From Anaerolineales bacterium (GTDB lineage: Bacteria > Chloroflexota > Anaerolineae > Anaerolineales > UBA6668): a stretch of DNA of 34,539 nucleotides. Location of the stretch: assembly GCA_020630805.1 (NCBI GenBank), contig JAHDIM010000018.1, forward strand, positions 1 to 34,539. Direction: 5' to 3'. The notes beneath the pieces are model-generated. The model ran no database searches. It was not told the DNA's origin and saw only the letters and a program-made list of their open reading frames with translations. How positions within the stretch are numbered: the stretch's first letter is position 1; every line of letters begins with the position of its first letter. Positions 10,863 to 18,070 of the stretch are shown here, one piece after another. The position numbers were made by a program, and so were the translations under genes.

Positions 10863-10886
10863 GCCACGGCTTGCCGTGGCGTTTTT
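10863..10886 (+). terminator. Rho-independent terminator of the signalling operon
   Basis: GCCACGGC-TT-GCCGTGGC forms an 8-bp GC-rich inverted repeat (practical loop about four bases), followed by GTTTTTG. It lies 50 bases after the ABM gene. A near-identical copy ends the next operon at 14830. Confidence 0.85.
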
Positions 10887-10899
10887 GATTCTCCAAGAT

Positions 10900-10938
10900 C
10901 TTTAGCAAATCTTTAGAAAACCTTTGCCAATGCTTTAG
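10900..10938 (+). promoter_or_regulatory. Four direct repeats with 11-bp period (OmpR/PhoB-type binding array)
   Basis: CTTTAG begins at 10900, 10911 and 10933, and CTTTGC at 10922, so four hexamers are spaced exactly 11 bases apart. Direct repeats at 11 bp are the known binding pattern of OmpR/PhoB-family regulators, which bind head-to-tail on one face of DNA. An OmpR-family regulator is encoded downstream in the same operon (12766). A TATGCT at 10949-10954 sits about ten bases after the last repeat, the spacing of PhoB-activated promoters that lack a -35 box. Autoregulation is inference. Confidence 0.65.
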
Positions 10939-11004
10939 TCCACATTCATATGCTTCTTTGTACCGATGCCAACTATTGAACTCATAACGTACAAGGAGAC
11001 CAGA

Positions 11005-12261
11005 ATGATTACCAAATTACAAAAGAAAATTGTGCAGCTTAGCCTGCTAAGCGCGATTGTTGCGCTCTTACTCGTAGCATGTGGCGGTGCACCGACAGCC
11101 GAGCCAGAAGCCGCCATTGAAGAAGAACCAGCGATAGAAGAAGCCGCTGAAGAGCTGGAAGCAGAAACGGAGGAGATGGTCGATGCCGATGATGCCGATA
11201 GCGATGACATGGCAATGGCCGAGGACATCAATGTCTTTTTCCAAATGCCAACTGCCAACGCCATAGTGCCACCAACATTCACGGTTGAAATGGGCGCGCT
11301 TGGAGTCGCTGTAGATCCAGCCGGTGAGATCTTAGAGAACTCAGGGCATATGCACATCTTGGTAGATACTGACTTTATTCCAGCCGGTGAGGTCATTCCA
11401 AATGATGAACAACATCTCCACTTTGGTGATGCCTCTACCTCAACCGAACTGACGCTGTCACCAGGGTCACATACGCTGCGTTTGCAGCTGGCTAATGGCG
11501 CACACATTGCCCTGGACGGTGATCAATATCGCGATGAAATTGTGATCACGGTAAGTGAAAATGCAGCAGCCCAGTCAGTCCGCTTTGCAAGTCCGCTTAC
11601 AGGTGCAACTGTGCCGCCAACCTTTAATATCAACATGGCTGCTGCTGGACTAATTGTAGAGCCTGCGGGCGAAATTACAGAGTTAGGCGGTCATATGCAT
11701 ATCCTTGTGAATACTGACTTTATCCCGGCTGGTGATGTTATTCCAAGCGATGAACAGCACTTGCACTATGGGAAAGCCCAACTAGACACAGAACTGACGC
11801 TTGAGCCAGGCGAGCATACCTTGCGCTTGCAATTTGCCAACGGAGCGCACATTGCGCTGGAAGGCGATCAATATCGTGATGAGATCGTGATCAATGTCGC
11901 AGAAGATGCCGCTGCACAATCCGTGTCATTCGTAGCCCCACTTGATGGCAGTGAAGTGTCTGAAACCTTTACTGTCAACATGACAGCGGCTGGTCTCTTT
12001 GTTGAAGGTGCCGGTGCTGTATTGCGCGGTACTGGTGGGCATATGCATATTCTCATCAATACCGACTTTATTGAACCGGGCAGTGTTGTGCCTAGTGATG
12101 AGCAACACTTGCACTTTGGTGGCGGCCAAACCAGCGCTGAAATTACGTTGCCTGAAGGTGAGCACACGTTGCGACTGCAAATGGCAAATGGCGCACACTT
12201 GGCATTGGAAGGCGACCAATATCGTGATGAGATCACGATCACGGTAGGTGACGAATACTAA
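11005..12261 (+). CDS. Lipoprotein with three tandem DUF4399 domains
   Basis: Surface or periplasmic-side lipoprotein of 418 residues. The start at 11005 is preferred over the track's 10966 because AAGGAG precedes it by eight bases and the signal peptide then begins MITKLQKK. The lipobox is LVAC with Cys26. An acidic Glu/Ala linker (about 30-75) leads to three homologous repeats of about 100-110 residues, each with GHMHIL(V/I), IP.DEQHLH(F/Y)G, HTLRLQ.ANGAH and a closing DQYRDEI. These are DUF4399 features. The conserved His-Met-His and His-Leu-His residues could form metal sites. It is the first gene of a unit with a cytochrome c and a two-component system. The function of DUF4399 is unknown; copper or heme-related binding is a speculation. 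Confidence 0.85.
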   Translation: MITKLQKKIVQLSLLSAIVALLLVACGGAPTAEPEAAIEEEPAIEEAAEELEAETEEMVDADDADSDDMAMAEDINVFFQMPTANAIVPPTFTVEMGALGVAVDPAGEILENSGHMHILVDTDFIPAGEVIPNDEQHLHFGDASTSTELTLSPGSHTLRLQLANGAHIALDGDQYRDEIVITVSENAAAQSVRFASPLTGATVPPTFNINMAAAGLIVEPAGEITELGGHMHILVNTDFIPAGDVIPSDEQHLHYGKAQLDTELTLEPGEHTLRLQFANGAHIALEGDQYRDEIVINVAEDAAAQSVSFVAPLDGSEVSETFTVNMTAAGLFVEGAGAVLRGTGGHMHILINTDFIEPGSVVPSDEQHLHFGGGQTSAEITLPEGEHTLRLQMANGAHLALEGDQYRDEITITVGDEY

Positions 12262-12279: not shown

Positions 12280-12741
12280 ATGAACAGATCAATTCCGAAA
12301 GATAATGGGATGACTGTCGTGCTAATTGCGTGCGCCCTCACCTTTGTGCTGATGCTGCTCGCAAGCTGGTTTACGTACCAAGTCATTAGCGCCGATGTTG
12401 CCCGCCAAGCTGCAATTGCCCTAGATCCGAATGCGCGGCCACCGGCCGAGCTATGGACTGCAATGGGGTGTTCTGCTTGCCACGATCTTTCTGAAGTGCA
12501 AAGTGCTGGCAACAAAGGGCAACCGGGTCCCTATATGGGGGGCTTGGACGCCGTAGCAGCAGACCGCGTTGCGGGTGAAAACGCACTGGCGTATATCAAA
12601 ACCAGTATTGTGGATCCCAATGCCTATGTGCTGGACGGTTATGTTGCGAACATCATGCCGCAAAACTTTTCCGAAAAGATGTCAGCCTCTGAAATAGAGA
12701 TGCTGGCAGCTTGGATCCTTGATCAGAATCGCGAACAATAA
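12280..12741 (+). CDS. Membrane-anchored monoheme cytochrome c
   Basis: 153 residues. One N-terminal transmembrane anchor (about 12-36) is followed by an outward-facing class I-like cytochrome c domain. The heme-binding motif is CSACH (Cys64, Cys67, His68), with a probable axial Met126 in NIMPQNF near the end. The ILDQ-containing C-terminal helix is typical. It likely carries electrons at the outer face of the membrane, perhaps to an oxidase or to a partner of the upstream DUF4399 lipoprotein. It starts 18 bases after that gene and is followed within 24 bases by the response regulator, so all appear co-transcribed. Its donor and acceptor are unknown. Confidence 0.88.
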   Translation: MNRSIPKDNGMTVVLIACALTFVLMLLASWFTYQVISADVARQAAIALDPNARPPAELWTAMGCSACHDLSEVQSAGNKGQPGPYMGGLDAVAADRVAGENALAYIKTSIVDPNAYVLDGYVANIMPQNFSEKMSASEIEMLAAWILDQNREQ

Positions 12742-12765
12742 GCCAATGAGTCTTTGGTCCAAACT

Positions 12766-13458
12766 ATGTCAACCACAATCCTGCTAGTAGAAGATGAGCC
12801 TGCTGCAGCGCAAATGCTGAAGCTCTACTTGGAGGTCGAAGGTTATACATTGGTTTGGGCCGAGGATGGTCCCGCAGCAGAAGCTGCATTTCATGCGAAT
12901 GCGCCGGCCTTGGCGATTATTGATGTCATGCTTCCCGGCTTTGATGGCATTGAGCTTTGCAAGCGCATTCGCAAAACTTCGTTTATCCCCATTATTCTGC
13001 TGACAGCCCAAACCATGGATGTTCAAAAAGCCATTGGGCTTGGGTCTGGTGCAGATGATTACATCACCAAACCTTACAGCCCCGTTGAATTGATAGCACG
13101 CATCAAGGCGTTGCTGCGGCGTAGTTATGATTTCCAGCCACCAGTTGCTCCAACTAAACTGTTAGGCGGCCCCCGCCTTTTACTTGATCCGAAAAAGTTC
13201 ACCATCACGCTAGATGGCATTGAAGTCAATACCACCGTTTTAGAGTTCCGCATTCTTGAAGAGCTAATGCGACATCCTGGCTGGGTCTACAGCCGACTGC
13301 ATCTGTTACAACAAGTCTGGGAAATTGAAGACGAAAGTGGGGTGGAGACAGTGACGGTTCACGTCAGTAACCTGCGAAAAAAACTGGGTGCAACAGGTGA
13401 GCAACTCATCAAAACTGTGCGTGGGGTTGGCTATGTCTATCAAGAAGAAACGTCATGA
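12766..13458 (+). CDS. OmpR/PhoB-family response regulator
   Basis: Response regulator of 230 residues from the ATG at 12766 (the track's TTG at 12754 adds four residues before the conserved TTILLVEDE). The receiver has Asp52 (IIDVMLPGFDG) and Lys101 (YITKPY). A winged-helix Trans_reg_C domain occupies about 135-228, with VTVHVSNLRKKLG as recognition helix and VRGVGYVY as the wing. It pairs with the kinase that overlaps its stop as ATGA. The 11-bp direct repeats upstream of 11005 are its most plausible target. Confidence 0.92.
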   Translation: MSTTILLVEDEPAAAQMLKLYLEVEGYTLVWAEDGPAAEAAFHANAPALAIIDVMLPGFDGIELCKRIRKTSFIPIILLTAQTMDVQKAIGLGSGADDYITKPYSPVELIARIKALLRRSYDFQPPVAPTKLLGGPRLLLDPKKFTITLDGIEVNTTVLEFRILEELMRHPGWVYSRLHLLQQVWEIEDESGVETVTVHVSNLRKKLGATGEQLIKTVRGVGYVYQEETS

Positions 13459-14807
13459 GAAATCGTCTCTTTGTCAGTTTCATTGCTATTGTTGTCACCA
13501 CGGTTGTCGCGTTACTGATCGCGATTCAAACTAATATTGGTGCAACCTTCGATGACTTTCGGGGGGCGCACATAGGGGCGCATTTGCAGCACGTGCCGCA
13601 GGAACTGTCTGCGCACTATCAGACTGTTGGCTCTTGGGATGGCATTGGCCCGGTTCTAGAGCACATCAGCACCACACTCAATATGGAAGTTGGGCTAGTG
13701 GATGTGGATGACAACCTAGTGGCGGCAACCTCTTTAGAGATTAGTGACATTGCCTTCAACTTAGATGTTGAACGTGCGGATTTGGCGGTTGAGATCAAAG
13801 ACCCAGCAAGCAGCGCGGTTGTCGGAACAGCTTTTTTTCGCAGCAGTCCCCTCATCAAACAGCGTGATCAGCTATTTCTGCAACAGCTGTATCGCGTTGC
13901 ACTGTGGGTAGGGCTGAGCGTCCTCGGGCTGGCGGTGCTGCTGAGCTATTGGCTGTCCAATACCATTAGTAAGCCACTCAACCAGCTGAGTCAAGCGGCA
14001 GCGAATATACCCAAAGGCCATTACGACATTGCGGTGGATCGGTCTAGCGACCCTGAAATTGATTCTTTGGTCGTGGCACTGACTCACATGGGCGCGGAGA
14101 TTGGTAAGCTAGAAAAGATGCGCCGCAACTTAGTCACCAATATCTCGCACGACTTGCGCACACCGCTAACTGTGGTCAATGGTTATTTAGAAGGCCTCCG
14201 CAACGGTGCCATTGCAGACCGGCGCACAGCTGAGAAAGTGTTTGAGATTATGCACACTGAGATTCAATATCTCACCACGCTTGTAGAGTCTCTCAATGAA
14301 GTGGCTGCGTTAGATTCGGGCGAAATTCCGTTAAATTACGCTGTTGTCAGCGTACGGTCACTTGTGCGCCAAGCGGTGGATCGCATCAGGCCGAATGCAG
14401 ACTTGCACTCGATACGTGTGCATGACAAGTACACCCACATTGACCAAGACACTTTCATCAAAGTTGATCCCGTCAAATTTGGGCAGGCGCTTTTCAATCT
14501 GCTCGACAACGCCCTGCATTATTCACCGCCCGACGGACGACTCTGTATTGCTGTCACTGCCACGGAGTCCGAACTCTGCTTTGCCGTCAAAGACCGTGGC
14601 GATGGTGTCCTGCCAGAGCATCAGCCGTTTATTTTTGAACGCTTTTATCGCGCTGACCCGAATCGCAACCGGAAACAACATGGCTACGGCATGGGACTTT
14701 CCATTGTGCGATCTGTCGTCCACGCCCACGGCGGGCGCGTCTGGGTAGATAGCAGTGGTGTGCCAGGTGAAGAGACAGTCTTTACCATTGCGTTACCGAT
14801 TGGGTAA
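13455..14807 (+). CDS. Sensor histidine kinase (EnvZ/BaeS type)
   Basis: 450 residues. Transmembrane helices lie at about 5-24 and 148-168, enclosing an extracytoplasmic sensor of some 120 residues with no recognised ligand motif. HAMP follows (about 169-222), then HisKA with His232 (NISHDLRTPLTVVNGY) and HATPase (LLDNALHYSPPDG, DRGDGV, GYGMGLSIV). Its ATG overlaps the regulator stop (ATGA), giving a standard cognate pair. Co-location with a cytochrome and DUF4399 lipoprotein suggests it senses a redox, metal or envelope signal; this is inference. Confidence 0.92.
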   Translation: MRNRLFVSFIAIVVTTVVALLIAIQTNIGATFDDFRGAHIGAHLQHVPQELSAHYQTVGSWDGIGPVLEHISTTLNMEVGLVDVDDNLVAATSLEISDIAFNLDVERADLAVEIKDPASSAVVGTAFFRSSPLIKQRDQLFLQQLYRVALWVGLSVLGLAVLLSYWLSNTISKPLNQLSQAAANIPKGHYDIAVDRSSDPEIDSLVVALTHMGAEIGKLEKMRRNLVTNISHDLRTPLTVVNGYLEGLRNGAIADRRTAEKVFEIMHTEIQYLTTLVESLNEVAALDSGEIPLNYAVVSVRSLVRQAVDRIRPNADLHSIRVHDKYTHIDQDTFIKVDPVKFGQALFNLLDNALHYSPPDGRLCIAVTATESELCFAVKDRGDGVLPEHQPFIFERFYRADPNRNRKQHGYGMGLSIVRSVVHAHGGRVWVDSSGVPGEETVFTIALPIG

Positions 14808-14829
14808 ATAATCTAGGAATGTGTGTTGC

Positions 14830-14851
14830 GCCACGGCTTGCCGTGGCGTTT
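14830..14851 (+). terminator. Rho-independent terminator of the cytochrome/two-component operon
   Basis: GCCACGGC-TT-GCCGTGGC followed by GTTTTAG, 22 bases after the kinase stop. The core hairpin is identical to the one at 10863, and the next bases (GATTC) match too, so the two are a duplicated terminator element. Confidence 0.8.
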
Positions 14852-14940
14852 TAGATTCCTCAAACGCGCACAAAATCGCACATATGGTGCGATTACGTGA
14901 CAAATATACCGGTTGTAGGCTTGTGTAAGCATTATTCTAT

Positions 14941-14972
14941 TAACGCAATCAACTCGGCTGATGATTGCGTTA
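14941..14972 (+). promoter_or_regulatory. 11-bp hairpin abutting the ribosome-binding site of the first SPFH gene
   Basis: TAACGCAATCA and TGATTGCGTTA form a perfect 11-bp inverted repeat with a 10-nt loop. The right arm ends where AGAGGA, the probable Shine-Dalgarno for the ATG at 14981, begins. It could be a leader structure modulating translation, or a DNA operator near a promoter (AT-rich TATTCTATTAA just upstream). Confidence 0.5.
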
Positions 14973-14980
14973 GAGGAATT

Positions 14981-16270
14981 ATGAGGCAAAGGAACAAAAA
15001 GCAACTCAAAACATATAGCAAAAAACTAGGAATTGGCAGCGTGGTTATGTTGATTGTTTTGGCAATATGGCGTTTTACAGGGTATTCACCGCGCTTGGTT
15101 TTTATTGATATTTTCGTGTTTTGTATCAGCTTTATTGTGATGTTGGTCATTACGAGCCAATTCATCCTACCTGTATCGAGTAATTCAGGCAGGAGCCAAG
15201 CATTGTGGCGATTCCTGAGTTATTTAGATCCATGGAATCAGCAGCCAATCTTAGTTGTTAAGGATGGCGAATTAATTGAAAGGCGTGGTGAACGACATAA
15301 ATCAGGGCCAGGTGTTGTGTTGGTGTACCCTGGAAATGCAATTGTGGTGCAAACGCCAACTAAATTTGTTGAGTCTCGAAACTCAGGTGTGGTCTTTCTA
15401 AAAGAGAAACAGCGCCTTCGCGAGTATCTTGATTTACGACCACATTTATTTTTGATCAATGACGTTTACGCGCGAACTAGCGACGGAATTGAAGTAATGG
15501 CAGAACTGAATGTGTCATTCAGGCTTAGTCGACGTCGAAATGGCTCTGAAAGTGCATCACACATCACTCATCCATACGGAGCCCCTTTTGCGGGGCCCTT
15601 GGACAAAGCATTTGATGCTGTGTATCGCGGTGAAGCCGTAGCTCAGCAAGCGGAAACAGCGTATTGGTCTGATTTACCTATCAAGATTGCAGTTGATGTT
15701 TGGCGTAGTGTAATGCTGGATTACAACCTGAACATGTTGTTTCCGAAAGGGTCCGCTATGGTTGGGGCAAAAGGATTGTTAGGAGAAATTGAAGAGAAAA
15801 CGTATCGACGATTAACAACCGACTCTCATTATAAAAATCAAATCAATCCCTTCATGATGGCACCAAGTCAGATTCTTGAACGACGAGGAATTGAGATCAA
15901 GAGCGTCAACATTCAACGGTTATATTTGACCGAGCGTTTGGCAGAAGAGCATGGATCTGAATGGCGTCGTCGTTGGGAGGAGGAGCTTAGTGAACAAACG
16001 CGAAGTGCAGATTGGGATATTACCCAAGCTCGAAATAGTGGCCGCAATATTGCCCAAGCTGCATTTGCAGAAGCCGCACTGAATAACATTGACCCATTTG
16101 GTAGTCATAAGCAAATCAGCTTAGGCATTCTAAATACGATACGTGAATTTCTGAATTTGCACACGATAGGAGTTCAGTTGTCGCACTATCAAGACGTATT
16201 TAGTCATCTCCAGTCTTGGATTGATGATCATACTGATCATGGTGATTGGATTTTTAAACGCAGGATGTAA
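14981..16270 (+). CDS. SPFH/band-7-like membrane protein, first of a pair
   Basis: 429 residues from the ATG at 14981, chosen over the track's GTG at 14897 because AGAGGA precedes it and the extra 28 residues would be read through a hairpin. A basic N-terminus leads to two transmembrane helices (about 17-32 and 37-64). The soluble part has an SPFH-like pattern: SGPGVVLVYPGNAIVVQTP (about 108-126), a strand-turn ARTSDGIEVMAELNVSFRL (about 164-182), and a helical, charged C-terminal half. SPFH proteins assemble into membrane-associated rings that organise proteases, lipids or cell-wall enzymes. The next gene, nine bases away, encodes a larger relative. No known subfamily is recognised; the function is unknown. 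Confidence 0.6.
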   Translation: MRQRNKKQLKTYSKKLGIGSVVMLIVLAIWRFTGYSPRLVFIDIFVFCISFIVMLVITSQFILPVSSNSGRSQALWRFLSYLDPWNQQPILVVKDGELIERRGERHKSGPGVVLVYPGNAIVVQTPTKFVESRNSGVVFLKEKQRLREYLDLRPHLFLINDVYARTSDGIEVMAELNVSFRLSRRRNGSESASHITHPYGAPFAGPLDKAFDAVYRGEAVAQQAETAYWSDLPIKIAVDVWRSVMLDYNLNMLFPKGSAMVGAKGLLGEIEEKTYRRLTTDSHYKNQINPFMMAPSQILERRGIEIKSVNIQRLYLTERLAEEHGSEWRRRWEEELSEQTRSADWDITQARNSGRNIAQAAFAEAALNNIDPFGSHKQISLGILNTIREFLNLHTIGVQLSHYQDVFSHLQSWIDDHTDHGDWIFKRRM

Positions 16271-16279
16271 TAGGGAATT

Positions 16280-18070
16280 ATGAAAAAGATAAACACACAT
16301 CCTCTTGCATTTTTGGCAGTGTTATTTGCGCCATATCAACTCTATCAGAGGGTTAGATTAGGCATTTTTCTAATGATTACATGGCTATATTGGGTGGTGG
16401 TCATTGCAGTTGAAGATCCAGTTACGCCAAATTGGCTCTTGGAAATGCAAGTGGAGAGTTTAGGGCAATTTATTGCAGCAATGGAGTTTATGGCGTGGCT
16501 CTGTTGGCGTCTATTTAATCCTTCAGTTTTGCTGGCGGTTGGACTTTATATTGCGTTTATTGGGGTACTTTGGGTATTAATGTATCTGGTATACGGAGTA
16601 CGTGTCTGGCGATCAAATGAGAATTTTGTAGTATCCATTTTTACGTTTTTATCAGTATTAATCGGGGTAATGATATACGGTGGCGCACTATTCTTTCAGA
16701 CATTAGATCCATTACCACAATCTGTGGAACTCATCTTTACGGACTTTGCTGTCTATGTTGTGTGGCCTGCATCTAATTTGTTCATTACGATGGTGGCACA
16801 ATTTTTTTCTCTTCATGTATTGAAGCATCTGTTTTTTCTTTGGAGTGGAATAGCCACTGCCATCTTCTTAGGTGCAATGTTCGTAGATAATCTGTTTGAG
16901 GCAAAAAACGTTACGAGTGTTTTTTGGCATTTATGCACTGCAATATTTGGCATTAGACAGCAAAAAATAGTTGCTACTGGAGGCGGAGTTCGGAAAGAGG
17001 ATAAGACGAAGATGCTATACCGGATCGGCGGCCCAGGTAAATTAGATGCGCATCTTGGTAGTGCTGCAATTGTCGAATTTGTAGATGCAAATAAATGGGC
17101 AGATGTATTACCAATCGCAAGAAATGGTGATGCAATAAAGCGACGCTTTGAGACAGTCAAACTTGCAGGGTTTCAATATTTGAAAGCGGTTATTGATTTA
17201 CGTGAAAAAGAATTGCACATAAAGGAACTGCCATTTATGACTCGTGATGGGTTGCCAATTAAGGTGATTGATGTGATTGTGCGCTACCGCTTGAGTCGAG
17301 AGCCTGAAGCCCAAAAGCAAGACTTTGACAGAATACCGTTTCCATTTGCAGATCCAGCAATATTTAGTTTAGTCTATCAGCGGCCAAATATCAGACAATA
17401 TTCTTACAATAAGGATCAAGTTCTTGAACGTAATTCCGATAATACGCATCAAAATAATCTAGATGCACAGTGGGAGATGATGGTAAAGAACCGATTGAAA
17501 ATATATTTCAGTCGGCATTTACGTCATTACACATTGGACGAAATTCTACAATTGGATGGCAACAATGAAATTCGCGACAAAATGGCGCAGCAGTTTTTTC
17601 AACGGGCTGATATCTTCGGTGATTTTCAGAGTTTTGGAACTGAACTAATCTGGGTAGGTGTTGGGGCTATCAAAAGTGATCTAGATGCCAAACTTGACAT
17701 TGATAAAGCCCAAATTGAGCGGTGGCAAAAACAAACTTTGGCCGACAAGAAAAAACAAAAGCAATTTATTGCAAACGAGTCTAGCCAAGCGTACACCAAC
17801 GAAATTGTGCGGATATTGAAGCAGTTGCTGAAGTGGTTTCAAGTAAATGTGATTGGTAAACCACCTATGGCTGAAAGCATTAAGACACTAAATAAGGAGT
17901 TTGCACGCCAAATGCGAAGCCTAAAGGAAAAGCTTGGTAGCAGTGCAAGCCCAGAGTTTGTGGCTTTGGTTACGGCCCTTGAGAAAAAATATGGACCGCT
18001 GGACCCGCCCCCGCCAGTCATTATCGGTGGGCAAAATCCTAAAGATCCAAAGCCTGGAAAGCCTACCTGA
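16280..18070 (+). CDS. Polytopic SPFH/band-7-like membrane protein, second of a pair
   Basis: 596 residues. The N-terminal third is membrane-embedded, with hydrophobic helices at about 28-45, 82-106, 116-140, 150-175 and 184-205. A cytosolic region follows with IGGPGKLDAHLGSAAIVEF (about 249-267), a strand pair RDGLPIKVIDVIVRYRL (about 322-338) matching the SPFH pattern of its upstream neighbour, then long charged helices (about 470-570) likely to be coiled coil, and a Pro-rich tail (DPPPPVIIGG). Together the genes look like a two-component membrane scaffold. Codon use seems more AT-rich by eye than in the flanking operons. It converges on purN with only 19 bases between stops and no clear terminator. 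Function unknown. Confidence 0.6.
   Translation: MKKINTHPLAFLAVLFAPYQLYQRVRLGIFLMITWLYWVVVIAVEDPVTPNWLLEMQVESLGQFIAAMEFMAWLCWRLFNPSVLLAVGLYIAFIGVLWVLMYLVYGVRVWRSNENFVVSIFTFLSVLIGVMIYGGALFFQTLDPLPQSVELIFTDFAVYVVWPASNLFITMVAQFFSLHVLKHLFFLWSGIATAIFLGAMFVDNLFEAKNVTSVFWHLCTAIFGIRQQKIVATGGGVRKEDKTKMLYRIGGPGKLDAHLGSAAIVEFVDANKWADVLPIARNGDAIKRRFETVKLAGFQYLKAVIDLREKELHIKELPFMTRDGLPIKVIDVIVRYRLSREPEAQKQDFDRIPFPFADPAIFSLVYQRPNIRQYSYNKDQVLERNSDNTHQNNLDAQWEMMVKNRLKIYFSRHLRHYTLDEILQLDGNNEIRDKMAQQFFQRADIFGDFQSFGTELIWVGVGAIKSDLDAKLDIDKAQIERWQKQTLADKKKQKQFIANESSQAYTNEIVRILKQLLKWFQVNVIGKPPMAESIKTLNKEFARQMRSLKEKLGSSASPEFVALVTALEKKYGPLDPPPPVIIGGQNPKDPKPGKPT

Follow-up and report, generated by a model that had tools for sequence, protein, structure and literature searches.

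The window analysed here, a 34,539-nucleotide stretch of DNA from an Anaerolineales bacterium, carries an operon of four genes on its plus strand. The first gene (11005-12261), whose ATG at 11005 is preceded by the ribosome binding site AAGGAG, encodes a lipoprotein with three DUF4399 domains (PF14347, 9.3e-76, in three stretches), and the second (12280-12741) a membrane-anchored mono-haem cytochrome c (CSACH) for which the match to PF13442 is weak and below the Pfam cutoff. The third (12754-13458, with the ATG at 12766 as the likelier start) encodes an OmpR/PhoB-type response regulator composed of a Response_reg domain (PF00072, 1.3e-25) and a winged-helix Trans_reg_C domain (PF00486, 9.3e-23), and the fourth (13455-14807) a HAMP-HisKA-HATPase sensor kinase. 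These assignments bear out an earlier note on this DNA, which had stated that the operon encodes such a regulator. Upstream, a terminator-like hairpin with a T-run (10863-10888, hairpin at 10863-10880) closes the preceding transcription unit and parts its ABM-domain gene from the repeat array described below; a second terminator-like hairpin (14828-14849) closes the operon. Because hairpins lie on both sides of the array and the four genes, the operon is a closed unit with the array in its upstream region. We note that the perfect 18-bp hairpin GCCACGGCTTGCCGTGGC is identical at 10863-10880 and 14830-14847, ending the preceding unit and the operon, respectively, and is possibly a repeated terminator element. 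On the 3' side of the operon (14897-18070) lie two adjacent large genes, one encoding an SPFH/Band 7 domain and the other without a Pfam match. No orthologs of the whole operon were found: cytochrome matches were rejected as longer, fused proteins (roughly 300 aa) encoded next to cytochrome-b-type genes, and DUF4399 matches in two genomes (G025 and G452) were rejected because their surroundings are unrelated. A scan of genome contigs with the regulator yielded generic regulators only, with ≤41% identity.

The array lies at positions 10900-10954 (plus strand), which read CTTTAGCAAAT CTTTAGAAAAC CTTTGCCAATG CTTTAGTCCAC ATTCA TATGCT. Exactly as the earlier note had reported, it contains the hexamers CTTTAG (10900-10905), CTTTAG (10911-10916), CTTTGC (10922-10927; degenerate) and CTTTAG (10933-10938). 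The repeats are direct rather than inverted, with a period of 11 bp, and repeat 4 ends 10 nt 5' of a -10-like TATGCT (10949-10954) situated at +49 from repeat 1. No consensus -35/-10 promoter was called upstream of the DUF4399 operon, including no consensus -35. When four 6-bp repeats were scored over the whole window at all periods of 8-16, this array came top with 22/24, a score reached in 0.5% of whole windows simulated with a Markov-3 model and in none of 20,000 shuffles of the 192-bp intergenic region. The window has a single occurrence of four CTTTN7 units followed by TANNNT at +49 (0 expected), and the mismatch-free array of four CTTT words is likewise present only once in the whole 4.67-Mb draft genome.

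As a regulon motif, the simple CTTTAG-N5 repeat put forward in the earlier note proved insufficient. The suggested genome scan with CTTTAG-N5-CTTTAG returned 2 matches in the window's own genome and also 2 in the reversed control; because this is chance frequency, the pair cannot define a regulon. Looser matches showed no excess over the reversed control either and, therefore, no larger regulon is definable in this genome, for which all genome-wide statistics rest on pattern searches. The specific form of the motif is CTTTAGCAAA[CT]CTTTAG followed by two degenerate copies, with the -10 at +49. In its own genome, CTTTAGCAAA[CT]CTTTAG is found at the window operon, where it spans repeats 1 and 2, and at one other exact site (G000:C80:5151-5167, locus L128). 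Because the latter has two copies only and lacks a -10 at +49, it is a candidate second site only, and the regulon in this genome looks very small. The C80 site lies 203 bp upstream of the gene for a 740-aa histidine kinase, which itself follows a paralogous kinase gene.

CTTTAG-N5-CTTTAG shows no enrichment across 400 genomes of the order (32 matches), while CTTTAGCAAA[CT]CTTTAG occurs five times against ~0.1 expected, so that 5 of the 32 matches have the spacer CAAA[CT]; in the window the spacer after repeat 1 is CAAAT. The five sites are the window, C80 in the same genome, and one each in G499, G632 and G747, i.e., they fall in 4 of the 400 genomes. In G499 and G747, the counterpart of repeat 3 is CTTGAC, and -10-like hexamers (CATACT and GATACT) lie at +49 from the first repeat as in the window. 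In a protein search of 400 order genomes, apparently the same draw as that used for the motif, the only close relatives of the G747 regulator were those of G499 (80% identity) and the window (56%), followed by a next match at 48%. With this clear gap, a window-type regulator is present in exactly 3 of the 400 genomes, each of which has the box next to its regulator-kinase operon; by simple arithmetic, the overlap of box genomes and regulator genomes alone has p ~4e-7. Moreover, the recognition helices of the three regulators agree: ETVTVHVSNLRKKLG in the window, and DTVTTHVSNLRQKLG and ETVTAHISNLRQKLG in the other two. Thus, the head-to-tail OmpR/PhoB geometry suggested in the earlier note is backed comparatively, in that same-type boxes stand beside both of the close relatives that the regulator has in 400 genomes. 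Because the subfamily occurs in only three genomes, the link between box and regulator rests on three loci, and two observations count against it: in G499 and G747 the box is not ahead of the regulator gene, as it is in the window, but directly after the regulator-kinase pair and before a MacB/FtsX-type permease gene, and the exact boxes in C80 and G632 have no window-type regulator beside them. We also note that at G499:C162:2936 (L126) and G747:C159 (L125:5508) the permease ATG is only 7 nt after the -10 hexamer, and because of this position a leaderless transcript is predicted.

The CTTTAG box belongs to a wider family. At the first 33 regulator loci, matches to the box with up to three mismatches were in no excess over the control, but the three matches obtained revealed a CTTTA family with the same +49 spacing. 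The pattern CTTTA-N6-CTTTA-N6-CTT gave ~150 matches in 301 genomes, compared to ~76 in the reversed control, with matches in 91 genomes covering 50 genera. We analysed 111 distinct arrays, the window array not being among them. TANNNT is present at exactly +49 from the first repeat in 64/111 arrays against a background of ~1.4 per offset. In 46/111, a fourth CTTYA copy stands at +33, the position of repeat 4 in the window. Neither feature formed part of the search pattern, and because some arrays are mutual orthologs these counts overstate independence. The earlier note had placed the -10 at the right distance, and this distance is indeed fixed and short after the last repeat in the window, in G499 and G747 and across the wider family. 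Many CTTTA arrays flank regulator-kinase genes. Among 59 regulator loci picked by protein similarity and not by box, a box is present beside 12 of the 24 regulators with a GH[VI]R-like helix vs 0 of the 35 with other helices (Fisher p 2.4e-6). In the 64 arrays of this CTTTAC class, position 6 of copy 1 is C in 54 and otherwise T or A, but never G; it is G in the boxes beside the window's regulator subfamily.

In its layout, the array resembles the tandem operators of OmpR/PhoB-type regulators. PhoB binds head to tail to boxes that are direct repeats of 11 nt (PMC4415409), two or more pho boxes stand in tandem ~10 bp before a TANNNT/A -10 (PMC1906773), and an ArcA site has two to five direct repeats with a spacing of mostly 11 bp (PMC3798270). 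The window array shares with the Escherichia coli PhoB boxes the 11-nt tandem direct repeats ~10 bp before the -10, but differs in its core (CTTTAG vs CTGTCAT) and in an operon without phosphate genes. The pho boxes of cyanobacterial SphR (CTTAACCT, at least three tandem copies) have the same 11-bp period and a similar CTT(T/A)A core, and CTTTACTA occurs as one of their units (PMC1906773), whereas their spacer is different and their targets serve phosphate scavenging. ArcA multi-repeat sites resemble the window in having several direct repeats mostly at 11 bp; unlike in the window family, with its -10 at a fixed offset, their position with respect to the promoter is not conserved. Closest in layout are the CTTTAC-class boxes of the order, with four 11-bp copies, a CAAAT-like spacer after copy 1, a -10 at +49 and regulator-kinase genes alongside, yet these go with a GH[VI]R-like helix and with Met-rich and SHOCT neighbours instead of DUF4399 and cytochrome genes. 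The best NCBIfam model for the window regulator is PhoB; the score of 201.2 bits is below the TIGR02154 cutoff of 296.2. Similarly, regulator and kinase are below the cutoffs of the CusR/CopR-CusS models TIGR01387 and TIGR01386 (137.2 vs 279.2 and 159 vs 292.6 bits, respectively). By these cutoffs, the window regulator is an ortholog of neither PhoB nor CopR.

Because its layout recurs in related bacteria, the array adds a well-supported new case to a known type of bacterial gene switch. Judging from the sequence comparisons, it is very probably a binding site of the regulator encoded in the same operon, and we are confident, with modest reserve, that it acts as a PhoB-type tandem operator-promoter through which the operon of DUF4399 lipoprotein, cytochrome c, regulator and kinase regulates itself. 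In our working model, the tandem operator would stand in for the -35 element of the operon promoter. The kinase, as the proposed partner, would phosphorylate the response regulator, the proposed binder, which would then bind head to tail as two dimers to the four 11-bp half-sites on one helix face and recruit RNA polymerase to the -10 TATGCT at 10949; the transcription start is predicted near 10961. Transcription of the four genes would thereby be switched on, amounting to positive autoregulation of the local operon. We infer that the regulator binds the array and is phosphorylated, that it activates instead of represses, and where transcription starts. The rigid +49 rule argues for direct polymerase contact and hence for activation and, because the regulator gene is inside the operon that it would control, positive autoregulation is the simplest reading. 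As to the signal, relatives have genes for a multicopper oxidase, Met-rich proteins and a MacB-type transporter as neighbours, a hint at metal or envelope stress that comes from these relatives rather than from the window operon itself.

We considered that an OmpR/PhoB-type operator might be bound by another regulator, either an orphan or one encoded on a missing contig, with the operon's own regulator acting elsewhere. The genome encodes at least 12 OmpR-type regulators in a draft that is only 84% complete, and CTTTAC-type boxes with other regulators exist in the order; nevertheless, we regard this as unlikely, because the exact CTTTAG type tracks the window's regulator subfamily in 3/3 genomes and the G at position 6 of copy 1 sets it apart from all 64 CTTTAC-class arrays. 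In addition, the GH[VI]R-QK helix that goes with the CTTTAC class is absent from the regulators found in this genome, and its other OmpR-type regulators have no box nearby.

Proximity of repeat 4 to the -10, at only 10 nt, would also be compatible with negative autoregulation, in which the regulator occupies the DNA up to the -10 and blocks polymerase, as its relative ArcA does by occlusion at many sites (PMC3798270). A repressor would have no need of a fixed offset, and its promoter would require a -35 of its own, whereas both the strict +49 spacing and the absence of a -35 call are in keeping with direct polymerase recruitment of the kind known from PhoB promoters (PMC1906773); we consider repression very unlikely. 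The least probable reading, to which we give hardly any credence, is that CTTT words happen to line up here by chance and play no part in regulation. It is in line with the frequency of the two-copy pair, which equals chance in the genome and shows no enrichment in the order, but conflicts with the shuffles and simulations, with the agreement between genomes in sequence, gene neighbourhood and -10 offset and with the family-wide +49 spacing.

Beyond this operon, we somewhat favour the view that two-component promoters sharing one plan, i.e., four CTTTA[C/G] half-sites at 11 bp with a -10 at exactly +49, form a large and undescribed family in the order. A CTTTAC/GH[VI]R branch would bracket units that encode a Met-rich protein, a regulator and a kinase, with the gene for a small SHOCT protein coming next, and would plausibly constitute a regulon for handling copper or other metals; the window's regulator would represent a diverged CTTTAG/SNLR branch with a changed position 6, now controlling the DUF4399-cytochrome operon, in which helix and operator would have changed in a coupled manner. 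Searches of the literature for a matching motif in this lineage found none; here, the array and its regulator provide a predicted regulator-operator pair. The rigid +49 spacing offers a way to find more such promoters across the order, and the contrast between CTTTAG and CTTTAC boxes, with their two types of recognition helix, allows the evolution of operator specificity among OmpR/PhoB regulators to be tested in a simple way. Because the signal that induces the operon should point to the role of DUF4399 lipoproteins, the operon also provides a handle on their function.

Finally, a recurring unit with a CTTTA box is seen at L159 (2026-5281), L161 (2192-5552) and L172 (4530-7451) and also at L160, L168 and L170, in which the box is followed by the gene for a Met/Gly-rich membrane protein of ~260-310 aa with weak PepSY similarity, the regulator gene and the kinase gene. 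At several of these loci, a second CTTTA box and the gene for an 80-97 aa MMG-rich SHOCT protein follow the kinase gene; no second box is present 3' of the window's kinase gene. The recurring unit looks like a regulon with which members of the order handle metals, perhaps copper.
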